Part shown: positions 1-7,201 of the stretch, piece by piece | How the letters are laid out: every line of letters starts with the position of its first letter | Numbering within the stretch: the first letter of the stretch is position 1 | Assembly: GCA_003599505.1 (NCBI GenBank) | Contig: QZKO01000017.1 | Location: 1-47,207, forward strand | DNA length: 47,207 bases | Direction: 5' to 3' | Source: Nitrospiraceae bacterium | GTDB taxonomy: Bacteria > Nitrospirota > Thermodesulfovibrionia > UBA6902 | Position numbers and translations under genes: made by a program | Notes under the pieces: model-generated | The model's database searches: none | Seen by the model: only the letters and a program-made list of their open reading frames with translations | What the model was told of the DNA's origin: nothing

Positions 1-342
1 TATAAGAAACGGATTGATAGTCTTTACCGCTTGCACAAAAAAGGAATCAAAACGTGGGTAAGCATCGAGCCATATCCGACTCCGAACATAATTGACCAGG
101 ATTTTGTCGACATCTTAGGATCTATTTCATTCGTGGATAAAATCATCTTCGGCAGGCTCAATTACAATGCGATGGTTACAAGGTATCCTGACTATAAAAA
201 TTTCTACAATGACCTGAGCCAGCAGGTAATAGAATTCTCTGAACGCAACAATAAAGAGTGTCATATAAAGAATGGGACGATGACAAATGGAGTGAGCAAA
301 AAAGATATTAGGGGAAATAGGTTGGTTGCGTGCGGGGTTTAA
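1..342 (+). CDS. C-terminal part of a probable radical SAM protein (5' end outside window)
   Basis: The reading frame is open from base 1 to a stop at 342, so the gene begins upstream of the window. The visible part has the look of the last strands of a radical SAM TIM-barrel: a KGIKTWVSIEPYP segment, where the strand carries a conserved S-x-E-P, followed by FVDKIIFGRLNYN. The CxxxCxxC cluster motif would lie upstream and cannot be seen. A TTG at 31 is unlikely to be the real start, because the ten codons before it continue the same sequence smoothly. The STAND-like NTPase gene starts 21 bases downstream on the same strand, so the two are probably co-transcribed. The family is inferred from the strand pattern alone and could be wrong. 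Confidence 0.5.
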   Translation, partial: YKKRIDSLYRLHKKGIKTWVSIEPYPTPNIIDQDFVDILGSISFVDKIIFGRLNYNAMVTRYPDYKNFYNDLSQQVIEFSERNNKECHIKNGTMTNGVSKKDIRGNRLVACGV

Positions 343-363
343 CTTCTGAAAGATTTAAATTAG

Positions 364-3300
364 ATGCAATATAAACCTATGCAAAAAAGCTTCCCATGGA
401 AGCGTTTCTGGTGCCCGCCTGAAGGCAAATTAGAACTGGATATGTCCGGTTTTTTGTCTGATCCTGAAGATGAGTTCTGGGGACATATAAAATCTGATGT
501 AGTTCCTTTTGAAGAAATTCATAATACTCCCTGCCTTATTCTCCTTGGAGAGCCAGGTATCGGCAAGTCGAATGCTATCAAGACGGAAAAAGAAGCCCTT
601 GAACAGAAGATTGACAGTAAGAATGAACTTATACTTTACAAAAATTTAAAGGACTACAACAGCGAAGATTCCCTGCGAAAAGATGTTTTCGAGTCCGGCC
701 AGTGGCAAAAGTTCAAGAAGGGAGACTTTAAGCTGCATTTTTTTCTCGATAGTCTGGATGAAGTCAAGATCAGGATTCATAATGTCACTCGGATAATTTC
801 AAAAGAGTTAAAAGAATCTCCCCGTGAATGTCTTTTCCTGCGGATAGCCTGCCGCACAGCCGAATGGCCGACAAGCTTTCGTTCGGAATTGAACAGTTTG
901 TGGAAAGAAAACGAAGTAAGAGAATATGAACTTGCCCCGCTGAGATTAAAGGATATAAGAGTTGCATCAGAAATTTCAGGAATAAACCCGGACGACTTCA
1001 TTAATGCTGTTAAAGAAAAAGATGCCGGTTCACTCGCTTCAAAACCCGTTACGCTTAATTTCTTGCTAAATCTTTTCAATAAGGATGGACAATTCCCGGA
1101 ATCGAGGTTTGAATTATACGAAAAAGGTTGTTTGCTTTTATGCGAAGAGCCGGACGTGGAAAGGCGAGAGAAGGAAGCGATAAATAAAGCATACGTAGGG
1201 AATCTCAGCACTGAACAAAGATTTGTTGTTGCCTCTCGTATAGCGGCAGCTCTGGCATTCAGCAGTAAGGTTGCTGTTCAGAGAGATTTCTTGCATTCGG
1301 AAACTCAACAAGAGGGATGCATAGCGGTTAATGAATTAAGCGGTGGAAAAGAAAATGTTGCTTCGGGAACTTTCGATATAACTGAATATGTTGTAAAAGA
1401 AGCATTGACAACAGGTCTCTTCACATCACGCGGACAAAATCTTTTTGGCTTTGCTCATCAAACCTATCAAGAATTTCTCGCAGCACGTTATTTGAAAGAC
1501 ACGCCGTTTGAACAGGTTAAAAGTCTTTTGTTTCATCCCCATGATGAAAACAGAATTGTTCCGCAATTGTACGAAACAACCGCATGGCTTGCCGGACAGA
1601 GACAAGATGTCTTCTCATGGACTGTTAAATCAGAGCCGGAGATTTTACTGCGCAGCGACGTTGCTGTATTAAATGACATCGTTAAAAAAGAGCTTTTAGC
1701 TGCGTTATTGGAAAAGTTTAAAAATGAGGAGATATTTGACGATTGGGATTTTTACAAGTATTACAGCAAGCTTAATCACCCTGAAATTTCCGAACAATTA
1801 AAGCCATTCATTACAGATAAAAACCTGTCTTTTATCCCCCGTCGTGCAGCTATTGATATAGCCGAAGCATGCAACATTAAGACCTTAAAGGAAGTTCTAA
1901 CCGACGTAGCTCTTGACCACAAAGAGCAATACGGGATAAGGACGCAAGCTGCTCATGCGGTCTGGAAAGTAGGTGACAATGAGGTCAAAGAAAGGCTTGA
2001 GCGGCTTGCAGAAGGAAAAGCTGGAGACGACCCAGATGATGATCTTAGGGGAATAGGAATGAGATGCGTGTGGCCTCAAAAGTGGAGTCTTTTGGAGCTT
2101 CTCGACAATATTACCTCTCCGCAAAAAGATTCTCTTAACGGCGCCTATAAATTTTTCCTGAAATACGAGGCGCCACCTCATATAACCCGGAAAGCTTTAG
2201 CCGATGAATTGCCCAAAGCACTATCAATTATCAAGAAGTGGAAAAATCTTGAGGCGTATGACGGATTATGGTATCTTGCGGAAATTTACGATGAGATTTT
2301 CAAATCGGCATGGACAATGATCCCTAACCAACAAATTATGGAAGAGTTATCAGAAATAATTCTGTTCAGGACTAAGGAATATCAGCCGATTTGCGGTGCA
2401 AGAGATAAGGAGATATGGAAGCAGCTATCAGGAGACACTGATAAAAGGCATTCGATAGTGAAGTATATAATCGAAAAAAACGGGATTGAGGGAAAAGAGA
2501 TAACGAGTCTTGCATCCCATGAAACTCGACTGGTAGAGGACAGCGACTTCATATGGCTCCTCGAAGAAACAGAAAAAACCGATCCAGGCCGACATGCTTT
2601 TTGGGCAGACCTGATTATGTGGGTATTGAGGGATGACTTTCCTGCAGATTGGATAAGCAAGTTTCTTGAAGTCCGTATGCGGATCCCGATTCTTCAGGAG
2701 AGATATTGTACATACTGGGAATTTGATTCCGAGCTTGCCAGAAATGGCAAAGCAAATTATTTGAAGCGGCTGCGATGGGAGAAAAGGGACGCCCCTAAAA
2801 AGCCATTTCCTCCAGTCTCAACACGAATAGAAGAAACCCTGAAAGAAATAGAAGAAGGCCATTTCGATAAATGGTATGACCTTGCTTATTATCTTTCGGT
2901 TGATCAGGAAACAGGTGAGCAGCAGGAAGTGCCTTCAAGTGTTCAAGAGACTGCCGGTTGGAAGATCTTAGACGAGCCAACTCGCAAGCTTGTTATAGAG
3001 GCAGCTAAAAATTTCCTCTTAAATTATGAGCCGCCGGAGGAGGATGGGTTTGGCAGAGGGTCATGGTCGAATATTGATATTTCGATTCATATTGCTATTC
3101 TGCTTATCTATGATACTAAAAGCATCGTTAATGAAATTCCAAACCATGTATGGCTAAAACTGATTCCTTATATGGTCGATTATTGTCTTGCCTTTGATCG
3201 CAGCGAACTATATTGTACATTGTTTAATGTGGCATATGAGAAAGCACCGGATGAAACTGGAAAATACTTCTCCAGGTTATTACAAATTAAAAACGAAAAA

Positions 3301-4569
3301 GACGGCAAAATCTATTTCATAGACTACCTTAAAGACTGCTGGCCTGTCGGATTGAATCCTTTAATTCTGGAGGAGCTAAATTCTCCCAATATAAAGCCCG
3401 GCAGCTTCGAAGACCTTGTAGAATTTTTGGCAGATAAAGGCGTTGCTGACGTTGAGGGGATAGTTGTTGAATGGTTGTCCTCTTTCAATGAAGGGGATGA
3501 TTTATCAAGGAAACTATTTATCAAAGCGGTAGAATTGACCTTAACATACTGGGGTGATAAGCACTGGTTTCAAGTAGCTGATGTGTTCCACAAATATCCG
3601 GGGATCACAAAAGACGTAATTGGGGGTCTCGCCGATACGAATAGACATATAGTTAAATGTTTAAACAATCTGAGTGAACCGAGATTGGCTGAACTCTACT
3701 GCCTGATCAGCAAGAGTTTCCCACCCGAAACAGATTCCCCGCGAGAAGGATTTCATATTGTCGGCACACGGGAACACATAAAGGATTTAAGAGAGACGAT
3801 ACTTACATGCCTTTTAAATAAATGTTCAACGGAAGCTTGTACTGCAATTGAATCGTTGATTGATAAACTGCCTAATCAGAAGCGCTGGATGCGATGGAAA
3901 TTAAATGAGGCAATAACCAATACTCTAAAAAAGACGTGGAGTCCGCCGACTCCGCCACAAATAATTACGATGTTACAGGACAGGCACAGGCGGTATGTCG
4001 AGAGTGAAGAGCAGTTGTTGACCGTCGTTATTGAGTCTCTTGAAAGGATGCAAAAGTTTGTTAAAGGAGAACTGTCTCCAGTTGACCGTTTTTGGAATGG
4101 GAATAAACCCAAAAAAGAAGAAAGATTATCAGACGAAATTGCAATATGGCTCAAAGATGATCTCAGTTCAGCAAAAGGCATTATCGTTAACAGGGAAGTC
4201 CAACCGAAACGGGGACAAAAGACGGATATATATGTTAATGCTGTTAAGTTGTCTCCTGAAAAAGATGAGGCCATTCAATCATTACGCATTGTAATTGAAG
4301 TCAAAGGCTGCTGGCATGCAGAAGTCCTGTCCGCAATGGATTCTCAACTATATGAGCGGTATATGAAAGAAAACAATATGTTATGCGGATTATATGTTGT
4401 AGGTTGGTATATGTGTAACCAATGGAGTGATCAAGATTCGCGGAAGGGGAAAACACCGAAAATGACGATTCAAGAATTAGAAAAGGAGTTAGAAAGGCAA
4501 GCAACTCAGTTGAATGAGCGAGAAAACGATAAAAATCTAAAATCATTTATTTTAGAACTGTCATTATGA
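364..4569 (+). CDS. Large NACHT/STAND-like NTPase with C-terminal PD-(D/E)XK-type nuclease; candidate antiphage protein
   Basis: A 1401-aa soluble protein. Near the N-terminus is a P-loop, GEPGIGKS (about residues 62-69), then a Walker B LHFFLDSLDE (124-133) and an ACR sensor segment, the arrangement seen in NACHT/STAND ATPases. The middle, about residues 450-1250, is helical and rich in W and L without any recognisable catalytic motif; it resembles the HEAT/TPR-like sensor arms of STAND proteins. The C-terminus carries D1288 and E1312-V-K1314 in a TDIY ... IVIEVKG setting, which matches the PD-(D/E)XK nuclease core, followed by a GLYVVGWY strand. In known Avs proteins the nuclease is usually N-terminal; here it is C-terminal. 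The A+T-richer base composition and the radical SAM gene upstream fit a defence island. A defence role is inferred, not shown. Confidence 0.7.
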   Translation: MQYKPMQKSFPWKRFWCPPEGKLELDMSGFLSDPEDEFWGHIKSDVVPFEEIHNTPCLILLGEPGIGKSNAIKTEKEALEQKIDSKNELILYKNLKDYNSEDSLRKDVFESGQWQKFKKGDFKLHFFLDSLDEVKIRIHNVTRIISKELKESPRECLFLRIACRTAEWPTSFRSELNSLWKENEVREYELAPLRLKDIRVASEISGINPDDFINAVKEKDAGSLASKPVTLNFLLNLFNKDGQFPESRFELYEKGCLLLCEEPDVERREKEAINKAYVGNLSTEQRFVVASRIAAALAFSSKVAVQRDFLHSETQQEGCIAVNELSGGKENVASGTFDITEYVVKEALTTGLFTSRGQNLFGFAHQTYQEFLAARYLKDTPFEQVKSLLFHPHDENRIVPQLYETTAWLAGQRQDVFSWTVKSEPEILLRSDVAVLNDIVKKELLAALLEKFKNEEIFDDWDFYKYYSKLNHPEISEQLKPFITDKNLSFIPRRAAIDIAEACNIKTLKEVLTDVALDHKEQYGIRTQAAHAVWKVGDNEVKERLERLAEGKAGDDPDDDLRGIGMRCVWPQKWSLLELLDNITSPQKDSLNGAYKFFLKYEAPPHITRKALADELPKALSIIKKWKNLEAYDGLWYLAEIYDEIFKSAWTMIPNQQIMEELSEIILFRTKEYQPICGARDKEIWKQLSGDTDKRHSIVKYIIEKNGIEGKEITSLASHETRLVEDSDFIWLLEETEKTDPGRHAFWADLIMWVLRDDFPADWISKFLEVRMRIPILQERYCTYWEFDSELARNGKANYLKRLRWEKRDAPKKPFPPVSTRIEETLKEIEEGHFDKWYDLAYYLSVDQETGEQQEVPSSVQETAGWKILDEPTRKLVIEAAKNFLLNYEPPEEDGFGRGSWSNIDISIHIAILLIYDTKSIVNEIPNHVWLKLIPYMVDYCLAFDRSELYCTLFNVAYEKAPDETGKYFSRLLQIKNEKDGKIYFIDYLKDCWPVGLNPLILEELNSPNIKPGSFEDLVEFLADKGVADVEGIVVEWLSSFNEGDDLSRKLFIKAVELTLTYWGDKHWFQVADVFHKYPGITKDVIGGLADTNRHIVKCLNNLSEPRLAELYCLISKSFPPETDSPREGFHIVGTREHIKDLRETILTCLLNKCSTEACTAIESLIDKLPNQKRWMRWKLNEAITNTLKKTWSPPTPPQIITMLQDRHRRYVESEEQLLTVVIESLERMQKFVKGELSPVDRFWNGNKPKKEERLSDEIAIWLKDDLSSAKGIIVNREVQPKRGQKTDIYVNAVKLSPEKDEAIQSLRIVIEVKGCWHAEVLSAMDSQLYERYMKENNMLCGLYVVGWYMCNQWSDQDSRKGKTPKMTIQELEKELERQATQLNERENDKNLKSFILELSL

Positions 4570-4586
4570 GTACGGCGTATGTGAAA

Positions 4587-4690
4587 CCTCCCCTACCCCT
4601 CCTTGTAAAGGAGGGGATTTCTACTCCTCCCCTTGCTAAAAGCGGGACCGGGTGGGGTTTCGATCTCCTCCCCTTTACAAGAGGGCTGGG
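4587..4690. repeat. CCTCCCC-type dispersed intergenic repeat with perfect hairpin
   Basis: The stretch between the NTPase gene and dinB is pyrimidine-rich and holds several CTCCCC / GGGGAG blocks on both strands. The clearest unit is a perfect inverted repeat at 4596-4616, with arms CCCCTCCTT and AAGGAGGGG around a GTA loop. Similar CCCTCCTT...AAGGAGGGG blocks recur at 4624-4685. The composition differs sharply from both neighbours. It could act as a stem-loop after the NTPase gene, or it may simply be a dispersed genomic repeat. Confidence 0.6.
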
Positions 4691-4697
4691 ATGAGTA

Positions 4698-5915
4698 ATG
4701 AACATCATCCTCTGCATAGACATGGACGCCTTTTTTGCTTCGGTGGAGCAGCAGGCGAACCCGAAGCTGCGCGGCAAGCCGGTTGCCGTTATCGGCTCCG
4801 GGCACCGGACAGTTGTAACAACGCGTTCATACGAGGCAAGGAAGTTCGGCGTGAAAACGGGGATGAACGTCTATGAAGCAAAGAAGCTTTGCCCTCATAT
4901 TATTTTTGTCGTGGGGGATAATGACAAGTACGCCCACACCTGCAGGGAGCTTTCGGAAATATACACCGCCTTCACGCCTGATGTGGAGATTTATTCAATA
5001 GACGAGGCGTTCCTCGACGTCACGACAACACATCACCTTTTCGGAGGGCCTGAGGCAATAGGCCTTGAGATAAAGAAAAAGGTGAAGAGTAAATTCGGCA
5101 TAAACTGCACTGTCGGGATAGCCACGAATATCCTCCTTGCAAAGCTTGCAAGCGACATCTCAAAACCTGACGGCTTGAGGTGGATCAAACCCGGAGACAC
5201 AAGCTCCGTGCTTGAGAATCTTGCCGTTGAAGAGCTCTGGGGAATAGGGAGGAAGCTCGCGGAAAAACTTGATCTCCTCGGCATAAAGACCTGCGGCGAG
5301 CTCGGAAACGCGCCCGCAAGCCTGCTGAGGAGTAAATTCGGGATTACCGGTGAAGCGTTAAAGATGATGGGACAGGGTATCTGTCACAGACCTCTCATCG
5401 TCAAAGAAAGCGGGCCGAAATCAGTCGGCCACAGCATGACCCTTCCTTATGATATATGGAAAGAGAAAGATATCGAAGCGTACACGTTGAAACTCTCCGA
5501 GATGGTAGGGAGGCGCGCCAGGAAATACAGGCTGACTGGAAACGTCATATGCGTGACCCTCAGGTACAAGAGCTTTGAGACTTTTTCAAGACAGTCAAAA
5601 ATAAAACAGCGCACCGGCGATACCCATGAAATTTACAACACGGCAATGAAGATAATCAAAGGCATAAAGCTCAGGGATTCAATACGGCTGATCGGCGTAA
5701 GCCTGTCAGGACTCGCGGAATCGGAAAACCCGGAGCAGTTACCCCTGATACAGGAATACGCCAGAAAACGGGATTTGCTCAAGGCAATGGACCACATCAA
5801 CGACAGGTTCGGAGATTTCACAATTTCCTGGGCAAGGTATATGCTCCACAGATCACGGCCCGCCGTCATCTCGCCTGCCTGGCGCCCGCAGGGTATTCGC
5901 AGGACCACGGTATAG
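4698..5915 (+). CDS. dinB: DNA polymerase IV (Y-family translesion polymerase)
   Basis: A 405-aa Y-family polymerase that copies past damaged template bases in the cytoplasm. The N-terminus has the metal-binding IDMDAFFASVE motif (D8, D10), and the second acidic pair is in YSIDEAFLDV (D102, E103). A helix-hairpin-helix thumb region (ELWGIGRKLAEKL) and a little-finger domain follow. Length is slightly above the usual 350-400 aa. The extreme C-terminus lacks an obvious QLxLF-type clamp-binding peptide, although PEQLPLIQEY at about residue 350 is a possible variant. ATG at 4698 puts the catalytic motif at the usual distance from the start. The gene stands alone, with no imuB/dnaE2-type partner nearby. 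No SOS box was recognised upstream. Confidence 0.95.
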   Translation: MNIILCIDMDAFFASVEQQANPKLRGKPVAVIGSGHRTVVTTRSYEARKFGVKTGMNVYEAKKLCPHIIFVVGDNDKYAHTCRELSEIYTAFTPDVEIYSIDEAFLDVTTTHHLFGGPEAIGLEIKKKVKSKFGINCTVGIATNILLAKLASDISKPDGLRWIKPGDTSSVLENLAVEELWGIGRKLAEKLDLLGIKTCGELGNAPASLLRSKFGITGEALKMMGQGICHRPLIVKESGPKSVGHSMTLPYDIWKEKDIEAYTLKLSEMVGRRARKYRLTGNVICVTLRYKSFETFSRQSKIKQRTGDTHEIYNTAMKIIKGIKLRDSIRLIGVSLSGLAESENPEQLPLIQEYARKRDLLKAMDHINDRFGDFTISWARYMLHRSRPAVISPAWRPQGIRRTTV

Positions 5916-5983
5916 AAAACTTCCTTTCTCAGTGCCCTCTGTGGTTAAAAAAATCTCTCGATTTAGGTTAGACTAAAACGACC

Positions 5984-7201
5984 ATGAACGATAAAGTCGT
6001 CATCACAGGATTTGGTCTCGTCTCTTCCCTGGGACTTACTGCGTCAGAGACATGGGAGTCCCTGCTCTCCGGTCAAAGTGGAATTCGCCCGGCGGAAGGC
6101 ACTGACATGCAGGGTTTCAACTGTAAGGCAGCCGCTCCGGTAAACGGCCTTGACCCTTCCGGACTCGGCATTCATCCCAGAGACGCGCGCATTATGGATA
6201 AACATTCCCACATGCTCATGAAGTGCGGGCAGGACGCGTATAAACACGCAAAGCTTGACACCGCGTCAATCCCGGCGGAAGAAACAGGATTTTATGCGGG
6301 CATGGGAATGATTGACTATAATATCAGCGACCTTTTGCCGGCAGTGTTAAAGTCACTGGACACGCGGAACAATCTGGACTATGACGCATTTTATTCAAGA
6401 GCATATCAGGAGATCCATCCACTCTGGCCGCTCTCCATGCTGAACAACATAAGTTTCTGCCAGGTCGCTATCAATCTCGGACTGAAAGGTGAAAATACCG
6501 TTTTCTCGCCCCATGCCGATTCAGGAGCCCAGGCGATTATTGAGGGAGTCAACTCGATAATTGAAAAAAAGGCGCAGGCAGTCCTTGCGGGCGGAGTCAG
6601 TGAAAAAATATCTCCCATGAGCCTGGCCCGCTCCTCATGGTTTGGCGGAACAGTCCCCGGAGAAGGCTGCGGAATCATCGCCCTGGAACTTTTGTCTTCC
6701 GCAAAAAACAGACAAACGTCCTGCTTCGCCGCGATTACCGGATACGCCTGTGCGTTTGAAAAAAGCGGAGGACCTCATGGCCCCTCTTCAACTGCTGTTT
6801 CAAACGCGATGGACCAGGCAATCTCCAGAGCCGGGCTCAGGCCTTCAGACATTGATTTAATCATCGCTCACGGCGACGGCACACACGCGGGAGACAAGAA
6901 TGAAATAGAAGCAATCAATAACACGTTTTCAGATTGCCTTGACAAGGTAAACGTATTTACCTCAAAAGGTGCGCTGGGACACCTGCTCGCGGCCGCTCCC
7001 GCTGTTGATATCATCCTGGGAATTTACATGCTCCGGGATGGTATAATTCCTGCGGTCTGTAACGCATCGCCCGTGGATAAAGACATCAGGTTTAAAGTCG
7101 CATGCAACGTACCGGTGAAAAAGGATTTGAAGCGTATATTGATCAACGCGTGCAGTTATGAAGGACAATGCGCGAGCTTGATAATAGAAAAGGTGGTCTG
7201 A
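5984..7201 (+). CDS. Beta-ketoacyl synthase-like protein lacking the active-site cysteine
   Basis: A 405-aa thiolase-fold protein with the FabF/KAS II layout: VVITGFGLVSSLG at the N-terminus, LIIAHGDGTH (H296) and SKGALGHLLAA (H333) in the C-terminal half. Where KAS enzymes have TAC-T/S-x-G, this protein has SPHADSGAQAI (175-185), so the acyl-accepting cysteine is replaced by Ala178 or His177 depending on alignment. It therefore cannot condense by the normal mechanism. Cys-less relatives include chain-length factors and malonyl-ACP decarboxylase-type synthases. A FabZ-like gene follows 95 bases downstream, so the pair may belong to a specialised acyl pathway or a degenerate one. No ACP or intact ketosynthase is visible nearby. 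No clear Shine-Dalgarno precedes ATG 5984. Confidence 0.85.
   Translation: MNDKVVITGFGLVSSLGLTASETWESLLSGQSGIRPAEGTDMQGFNCKAAAPVNGLDPSGLGIHPRDARIMDKHSHMLMKCGQDAYKHAKLDTASIPAEETGFYAGMGMIDYNISDLLPAVLKSLDTRNNLDYDAFYSRAYQEIHPLWPLSMLNNISFCQVAINLGLKGENTVFSPHADSGAQAIIEGVNSIIEKKAQAVLAGGVSEKISPMSLARSSWFGGTVPGEGCGIIALELLSSAKNRQTSCFAAITGYACAFEKSGGPHGPSSTAVSNAMDQAISRAGLRPSDIDLIIAHGDGTHAGDKNEIEAINNTFSDCLDKVNVFTSKGALGHLLAAAPAVDIILGIYMLRDGIIPAVCNASPVDKDIRFKVACNVPVKKDLKRILINACSYEGQCASLIIEKVV

Follow-up and report, generated by a model that had tools for sequence, protein, structure and literature searches.

The window analysed here, 47,207 nucleotides in length, is the complete contig C15 of the source genome (G000; 2.64 Mb, 87 contigs) and opens inside a gene. 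Its first ORF is the 3' part of a radical SAM gene, the stop codon of which is followed after 21 bases, on the same strand, by the start of a gene for a 1401-aa protein with an NTPase core and a predicted C-terminal nuclease; a hairpin repeat and dinB lie beyond it (Table 1). The first-pass annotation had described these ORFs as a partial radical SAM-like gene and a STAND- or NACHT-type NTPase with a nuclease at its C-terminus, and both descriptions hold: full-length homologues of the 113-aa ORF contain PF04055 (43–47 bits, cut-off 29.5), and the larger protein gives NLR-fold matches at one end and, at the other, a restriction-enzyme fold with an invariant D/ExK. The hairpin could act as a terminator ending the transcript of the insert. 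An Rfam search of positions 1–6100 gave no match.

Table 1. Features at the left end of the window
Feature	Position	Strand	Basis
Radical SAM protein, TcmP-linked family, C-terminal 113 aa, cut at contig end	1..342	+	homologues; PF04055
1401-aa NLR-like NTPase with predicted C-terminal nuclease, EruA/HyoA superfamily, separate clade	364..4569	+	NCBIfam profiles; collinear homologues in many phyla
NACHT/NLR core, residues 1-480 (predicted fold)	364..1803	+	AF2; Foldseek; NLRC4 match
Walker A	547-570	+	inside NACHT/NLR core
Walker B, FLDSLDE	742-762	+	inside NACHT/NLR core
HEAT-like alpha repeats, ~residues 490-600	1831..2163	+	Pfam HEAT_2; alphaRep/HEAT structure matches
Poorly conserved middle, putative sensor, ~residues 601-1100	2164..3663	+	per-block identity to homologues
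Predicted PD-(D/E)xK nuclease core, residues 1252-1401	4117..4566	+	invariant residues; AF2 fold; structural matches
D1288	4225-4227	+	predicted nuclease active site
E1312	4297-4299	+	predicted nuclease active site
K1314	4303-4305	+	predicted nuclease active site
Hairpin repeat CCCCTCCTTGTAAAGGAGGGG, REP type, between NTPase gene and dinB	4596..4616	+	only near-exact copy in the window
dinB (DNA polymerase IV), right border of the variable slot	4698..5915	+	68-70% identical orthologues; beside lexA in relatives

The lexA–dinB slot and the radical SAM neighbour

Four genomes of the family have lexA, a DUF6504-like gene and dinB side by side or almost so, with the slot empty, and what stands before dinB differs from genome to genome. 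In G003 and G009 the slot contains the TcmP–radical SAM pair with a Dam-type methyltransferase and an HNH nuclease, in G005 a methyltransferase and an HhH glycosylase, and in the source genome the TcmP–radical SAM pair with the NTPase gene; G348, like G003 and G009, has the radical SAM–TcmP pair there with other cargo. The earlier remark that an A+T-rich stretch here is typical of islands was right in substance, as the insert between lexA and dinB is of low GC (34–41% against ~50%). TcmP has 34%, the radical SAM part 39.5% and the NTPase gene 41%, compared with 52% for lexA and 51% for dinB, so that all three inserted genes look foreign. The variable slot, from lexA to dinB, can be seen across L077, L123, L124, L125 and L128-L131. 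Upstream, lexA has a perfect LexA box, TACTATAC-ATTT-GTATAGTA, which is conserved in relatives and overlaps the lexA promoter, and a search of the window for LexA boxes found none ahead of the NTPase gene or dinB. It is plausible that the insert is transcribed from the LexA-controlled lexA promoter, and the NTPase-nuclease may be SOS-regulated. This placement of the NTPase gene in an SOS cassette was found in the source genome only, its homologues elsewhere lying in unrelated places and on plasmids.

The 113-aa ORF is 84% identical to the full-length radical SAM protein of G003 (73–84% for the nearest homologues, in the matched part), and 15 further genomes in the phylum encode homologues, as full proteins or pieces. 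The first-pass annotation had proposed looking left of base 1 for the cysteine motif; the contig ends there, and the motif is found instead on contig C45 of the same genome, which ends, directly after a TcmP gene, with the first ~47 residues of a radical SAM protein including CSHGCLYPC. The two pieces on C45 and C15 probably belong to one radical SAM gene, interrupted where ~350 bases are missing from the assembly. The three-cysteine motif, together with the fold (PF04055 in the homologues), places the protein in the radical SAM superfamily. Its cysteine spacing, in L122:1-139 as in the homologues, is Cx3Cx3C and not the usual Cx3Cx2C.

The usual neighbour of this gene is TcmP (TIGR04474, methyltransferase-like), which directly precedes it in 11 of 15 loci. 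The proposal that the radical SAM protein makes or modifies something for the NTPase, as its conserved partner, is not supported: HMMs for TcmP and the radical SAM protein gave no match in 82 loci of NTPase homologues, neither gene was found in the other homologue loci that were read, and the pair of radical SAM and NTPase genes thus recurs in 0 of 82. Most probably the radical SAM protein is carried along as a passenger or is a neighbour independent of the NTPase. Elsewhere the TcmP–radical SAM pair adjoins restriction-modification or defence genes (L078:3811-10691, L081:5157-12315, L082:357-5405, L077:6415-10167 and L124:7873-10724), and in L089:2-10207 a radical SAM gene without TcmP is likewise found beside such genes. 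The genes near these loci include CcrM-like, Dam-type, Eco57I-type and MAD2-like methyltransferases, a ResIII helicase-nuclease, HNH, SIR2 and STAND genes, and the pair may be an accessory part of restriction-modification loci that has so far gone unrecognised.

Domain architecture of the 1401-aa protein

The motifs first read from the ORF, GEPGIGKS (residues 62–69), FLDSLDE (residues 127–133) and the triad D1288, E1312 and K1314, are all where they had been placed and are invariant in homologue alignments. In an alignment of 39 sequences the invariant NTPase residues are G62, P64, G65, G67, K68, D129, D132 and E133, and across 44 aligned homologues the invariant C-terminal residues are E1252, E1278, D1288, E1312, K1314 and Q1328; both the NTPase and the nuclease motifs are far above chance. 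Residues 1–650 were modelled by AlphaFold (AF2) with a pLDDT of 91. The top Foldseek matches of the NTPase half are NOD2, NLRPs and Avs4, and VIA-align ranks NLRC4 best for the N-terminal half (Z 19.8 across 412 residues), although Foldseek also finds a resemblance to ORC/Cdc6 and clamp loaders; in the VIA-align comparison AAA+ machines reach Z ~12. From this model, residues 1–523 are predicted to have the NLR fold. Profile searches were less informative: the Pfam NACHT profile did not match the protein at E up to 1, Pfam and PADLOC returned nothing over cut-off for either the 1401-aa or the 113-aa ORF, and searching solved structures with the whole 1401-aa protein gave weak P-loop matches only.

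Behind the NTPase, HEAT_2 (Pfam) scores 17.7 bits, which is below its cut-off, and alphaRep/HEAT structures were matched at residues 468–546 by the A3 profile; no LRR domain was identified. Conservation is lowest across the middle (~600–1100), where median identity to homologues is 12–22% per 50-residue block, compared with 32–54% in most NTPase blocks and 40% at residues 1251–1350. Walker A is preceded by a median of only ~59 residues across the family, leaving no N-terminal effector.

The C-terminus is a predicted PD-(D/E)xK nuclease. The structure prediction called for in the first-pass annotation, run on residues 1185–1401, gave a nuclease fold with restriction-enzyme elements (AF2, pLDDT 89), and its structural ranking is headed by EcoT38I and BamHI (Z 8.1), then Can2 and BstYI (these four at Z 7–8) and PaqCI. 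Foldseek found no match to this domain with E < 0.001, and a C-terminal profile found none among solved structures. A Z of 8 is by itself modest; the invariant residues add to the nuclease assignment, in that D and (D/E)xK both fall in the predicted restriction-endonuclease core.

A family with exchangeable C-termini

The nearest relatives have 29–34% identity and are collinear across the full length. A scan of genome contigs with the family alignment recovered 215 relatives, and 80 of them were retained. D, E and K are retained in 51 of 68 near-full-length members, a nuclease-bearing share that is inflated because one of the two scan patterns was the nuclease motif itself. Close homologues are spread patchily over at least ten phyla; those found include Bacteroidota, Bacillota, Cyanobacteriota, Acidobacteriota, Planctomycetota, Pseudomonadota, Myxococcota, Nitrospirota, Verrucomicrobiota, Actinomycetota and Chloroflexota, an ANME archaeon and others. 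Further members are carried by conjugative plasmids and by two viral contigs. One of these viral members, L214:7992-14997, belongs to an IMG/VR contig of 59 kb and has a portal-like gene (portal profile, 25 bits; cut-off 30) ~0.9 kb away, so phages may carry the NTPase-nuclease gene.

In 15 family members the alignment ends at about residue 1205 and different C-termini follow. These non-nuclease tails were found in cyanobacteria and one acidobacterium: two members carry CHAT protease tails (46.3 and 36.5 bits, cut-off 24), a third (L177) is CHAT-like by appearance, five have a hydrophobic, membrane-like C-terminal segment and one has a weak hydrolase-like match below cut-off, the remaining tails having no assigned domain. 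In a tree of the NTPase part (a fast search, with branch support from SH-aLRT alone and some long branches unsure), the swapped tails are mostly within a cyanobacterial branch, nested among nuclease-bearing relatives, and the well-supported branches force at least four C-terminal changes. This swapping is the best evidence, and strong evidence, that the C-terminus would be an exchangeable effector module, at the end opposite to that in Avs and bNACHT proteins. The short N-terminus points the same way, and the earlier suggestion that the effector sits at the far end from that of Avs is thus supported.

The closest named proteins are labelled antiphage in NCBIfam. NCBIfam antiphage_EruA (NF058535) matches residues 126–1382 with 293.5 bits and antiphage_HyoA (NF058534) scores 195.3 bits; neither reaches its equivalog cut-off (1000 and 1200, respectively). 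Judged by these profiles, EruA and HyoA are distant sisters to the 1401-aa protein. Their antiphage status is taken from the NCBIfam names only; no relevant paper on either was found among those searched. With EruA it has in common an NTPase, a helical middle and a C-terminal D...ExK nuclease in the same order, with identical active-site residues. However, identity to EruA-type proteins is ~20%, compared with ~38% inside the clade of the 1401-aa protein, and they form a separate branch with a support of 100. HyoA aligns over the N-terminal and NTPase parts and over the C-terminal nuclease region (model positions 1139–1416), whereas its middle does not align. We propose a wider grouping, the EruA/HyoA superfamily, of proteins with an N-terminal NACHT-type NTPase and a C-terminal D...ExK nuclease in one polypeptide, to which the 1401-aa protein belongs. 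The first-pass annotation had suspected a new defence system; the grouping with named antiphage proteins favours defence, but "new" is too strong as EruA and HyoA already have this layout.

The loci also differ: at four EruA loci of one genus a gene for a DUF4143 ATPase runs into the start of the EruA gene, and none is present at the 1401-aa locus. This conserved gene of 421–442 aa precedes and overlaps the EruA-type genes (L062:178-5546, L063:7771-13184, L064:4407-9730 and L065:7845-13276), was identified as DUF4143 with AAA_14 in the one that was scanned, and is a possible candidate for an EruA partner. In the same genus the EruA-type gene of L067 (G001:C85:10001-13909) has three in-frame stops and looks like a decayed copy.

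Recent papers on bacterial NACHT and STAND immune proteins place the effector at the N-terminus and the sensor at the C-terminus (PMC12169576, PMC10907252). The clade 6 proteins bNACHT25 and bNACHT32 combine a NACHT switch with a PD-(D/E)XK DNase in one polypeptide (PMC12169576); their DNase is N-terminal and their sensor C-terminal, the reverse of the order found here. The 1401-aa protein has, by its predicted fold and its motifs, the NLR-fold NACHT module with Walker A and Walker B that marks a bNACHT, but its C-terminus is the predicted nuclease that relatives exchange, and not a sensor. It also has a STAND NTPase of the same predicted fold as Avs proteins (Avs4, Foldseek E 1e-6; AVAST5, Z 12), whereas Avs4 and Avs5 carry the effector at the N-terminus, where this protein has none, and the sensor at the C-terminus; no PADLOC family, the Avs models included, matched it at E up to 1. 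Animal NLRs (NLRC4, NOD2 and NLRPs) match the structure of the N-terminal half best, and differ in that the 1401-aa protein has HEAT-like repeats and a predicted C-terminal enzyme in place of an identified LRR.

Proposed function and competing explanations

We consider it fairly probable that the 1401-aa protein is a stand-alone, NLR-like abortive-infection receptor of reversed polarity with a predicted C-terminal DNase. Such a receptor would consist, in order, of an N-terminal NACHT-type switch, a helical sensor mid-protein and a C-terminal effector. At rest the NTPase would keep the receptor switched off. The trigger would come from the phage and would most likely be one of its proteins, recognised by the variable middle; it would lead to nucleotide exchange and presumably oligomerisation, and the C-terminal PD-(D/E)xK domains, once brought together, might cut DNA, so that the cell is killed or halted and the infection stopped. 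The gene would have entered the variable lexA–dinB slot with or after the TcmP–radical SAM pair. What was observed is the order of the domains, the conservation of the active-site residues, both folds as predicted, the dip in conservation across the middle and the C-terminal swapping, and the immune reading draws on the relation to EruA and HyoA, the NLR and nuclease folds, the effector swapping, the patchy spread, the plasmid and viral contigs and the restriction-modification genes of the slot. Against it, seven Nitrospira-like genomes stably have a homologue downstream of polA, a position that a housekeeping gene could also occupy; the modest nuclease-fold match and the antiphage label of EruA and HyoA, taken from names, weigh on the same side. 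A crude comparison gave no enrichment of defence genes (99 PADLOC families for the nearest 123 neighbours versus 90 for 123 distant ones).

If this reading is right, a widespread family with an exchangeable C-terminal effector (nuclease, CHAT protease, membrane or other) would widen the N-terminal-effector rule, and its members, as ready-made chimeras, would allow one to ask how a switch of the NLR type works on an effector attached at the opposite end. Most surprising is this reversed, exchangeable effector together with a defence slot within the SOS cassette, and the lexA–dinB placement makes a direct test of immune genes under SOS control possible.

If, on the other hand, the protein is a restriction machine sensing modification or foreign DNA, the NTPase and helices would read DNA and the nuclease would cut it, in the manner of McrBC or Hachiman. 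The resemblance of the nuclease to restriction enzymes, the methyltransferase and HNH nuclease in the slot of G003 and G009, and the ORC/Cdc6 and clamp-loader matches of the NTPase fold all agree with such a machine. We regard it as unlikely, since NLRs outscore AAA+ machines structurally and a restriction enzyme would have no use for a CHAT or membrane tail in place of its nuclease.

A three-gene system would have TcmP and the radical SAM protein place a modification on nucleic acid or on some other molecule, and the NTPase-nuclease would read this mark to distinguish self from non-self. Such a system would account for the 21-base spacing on one strand, the low GC common to all three genes and the recurrence of TcmP and radical SAM genes near methyltransferases and restriction genes elsewhere. 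It is nevertheless very doubtful: neither gene was found with the NTPase in the 82 homologue loci or in the others that were read, and in G003, G009 and G348 the radical SAM–TcmP pair shares the slot with different cargo.

Less credible again is a role in the response to DNA damage, with the nuclease-NTPase drafted into the lexA–dinB cassette for SOS repair or for programmed death after damage and not for immunity. The gene's location in the lexA–dinB slot, with a perfect LexA box upstream, and the polA adjacency in Nitrospira-like genomes would suit such a role, but the SOS-cassette placement is confined to the source genome, and effector swapping is typical of conflict systems. Least probable of all is a LexA-controlled defence slot working as one system, in which TcmP and the Cx3Cx3C radical SAM protein would write or erase a nucleic-acid mark read by the reversed NLR-nuclease, and in which SOS-inducing infections would both raise and arm the response.
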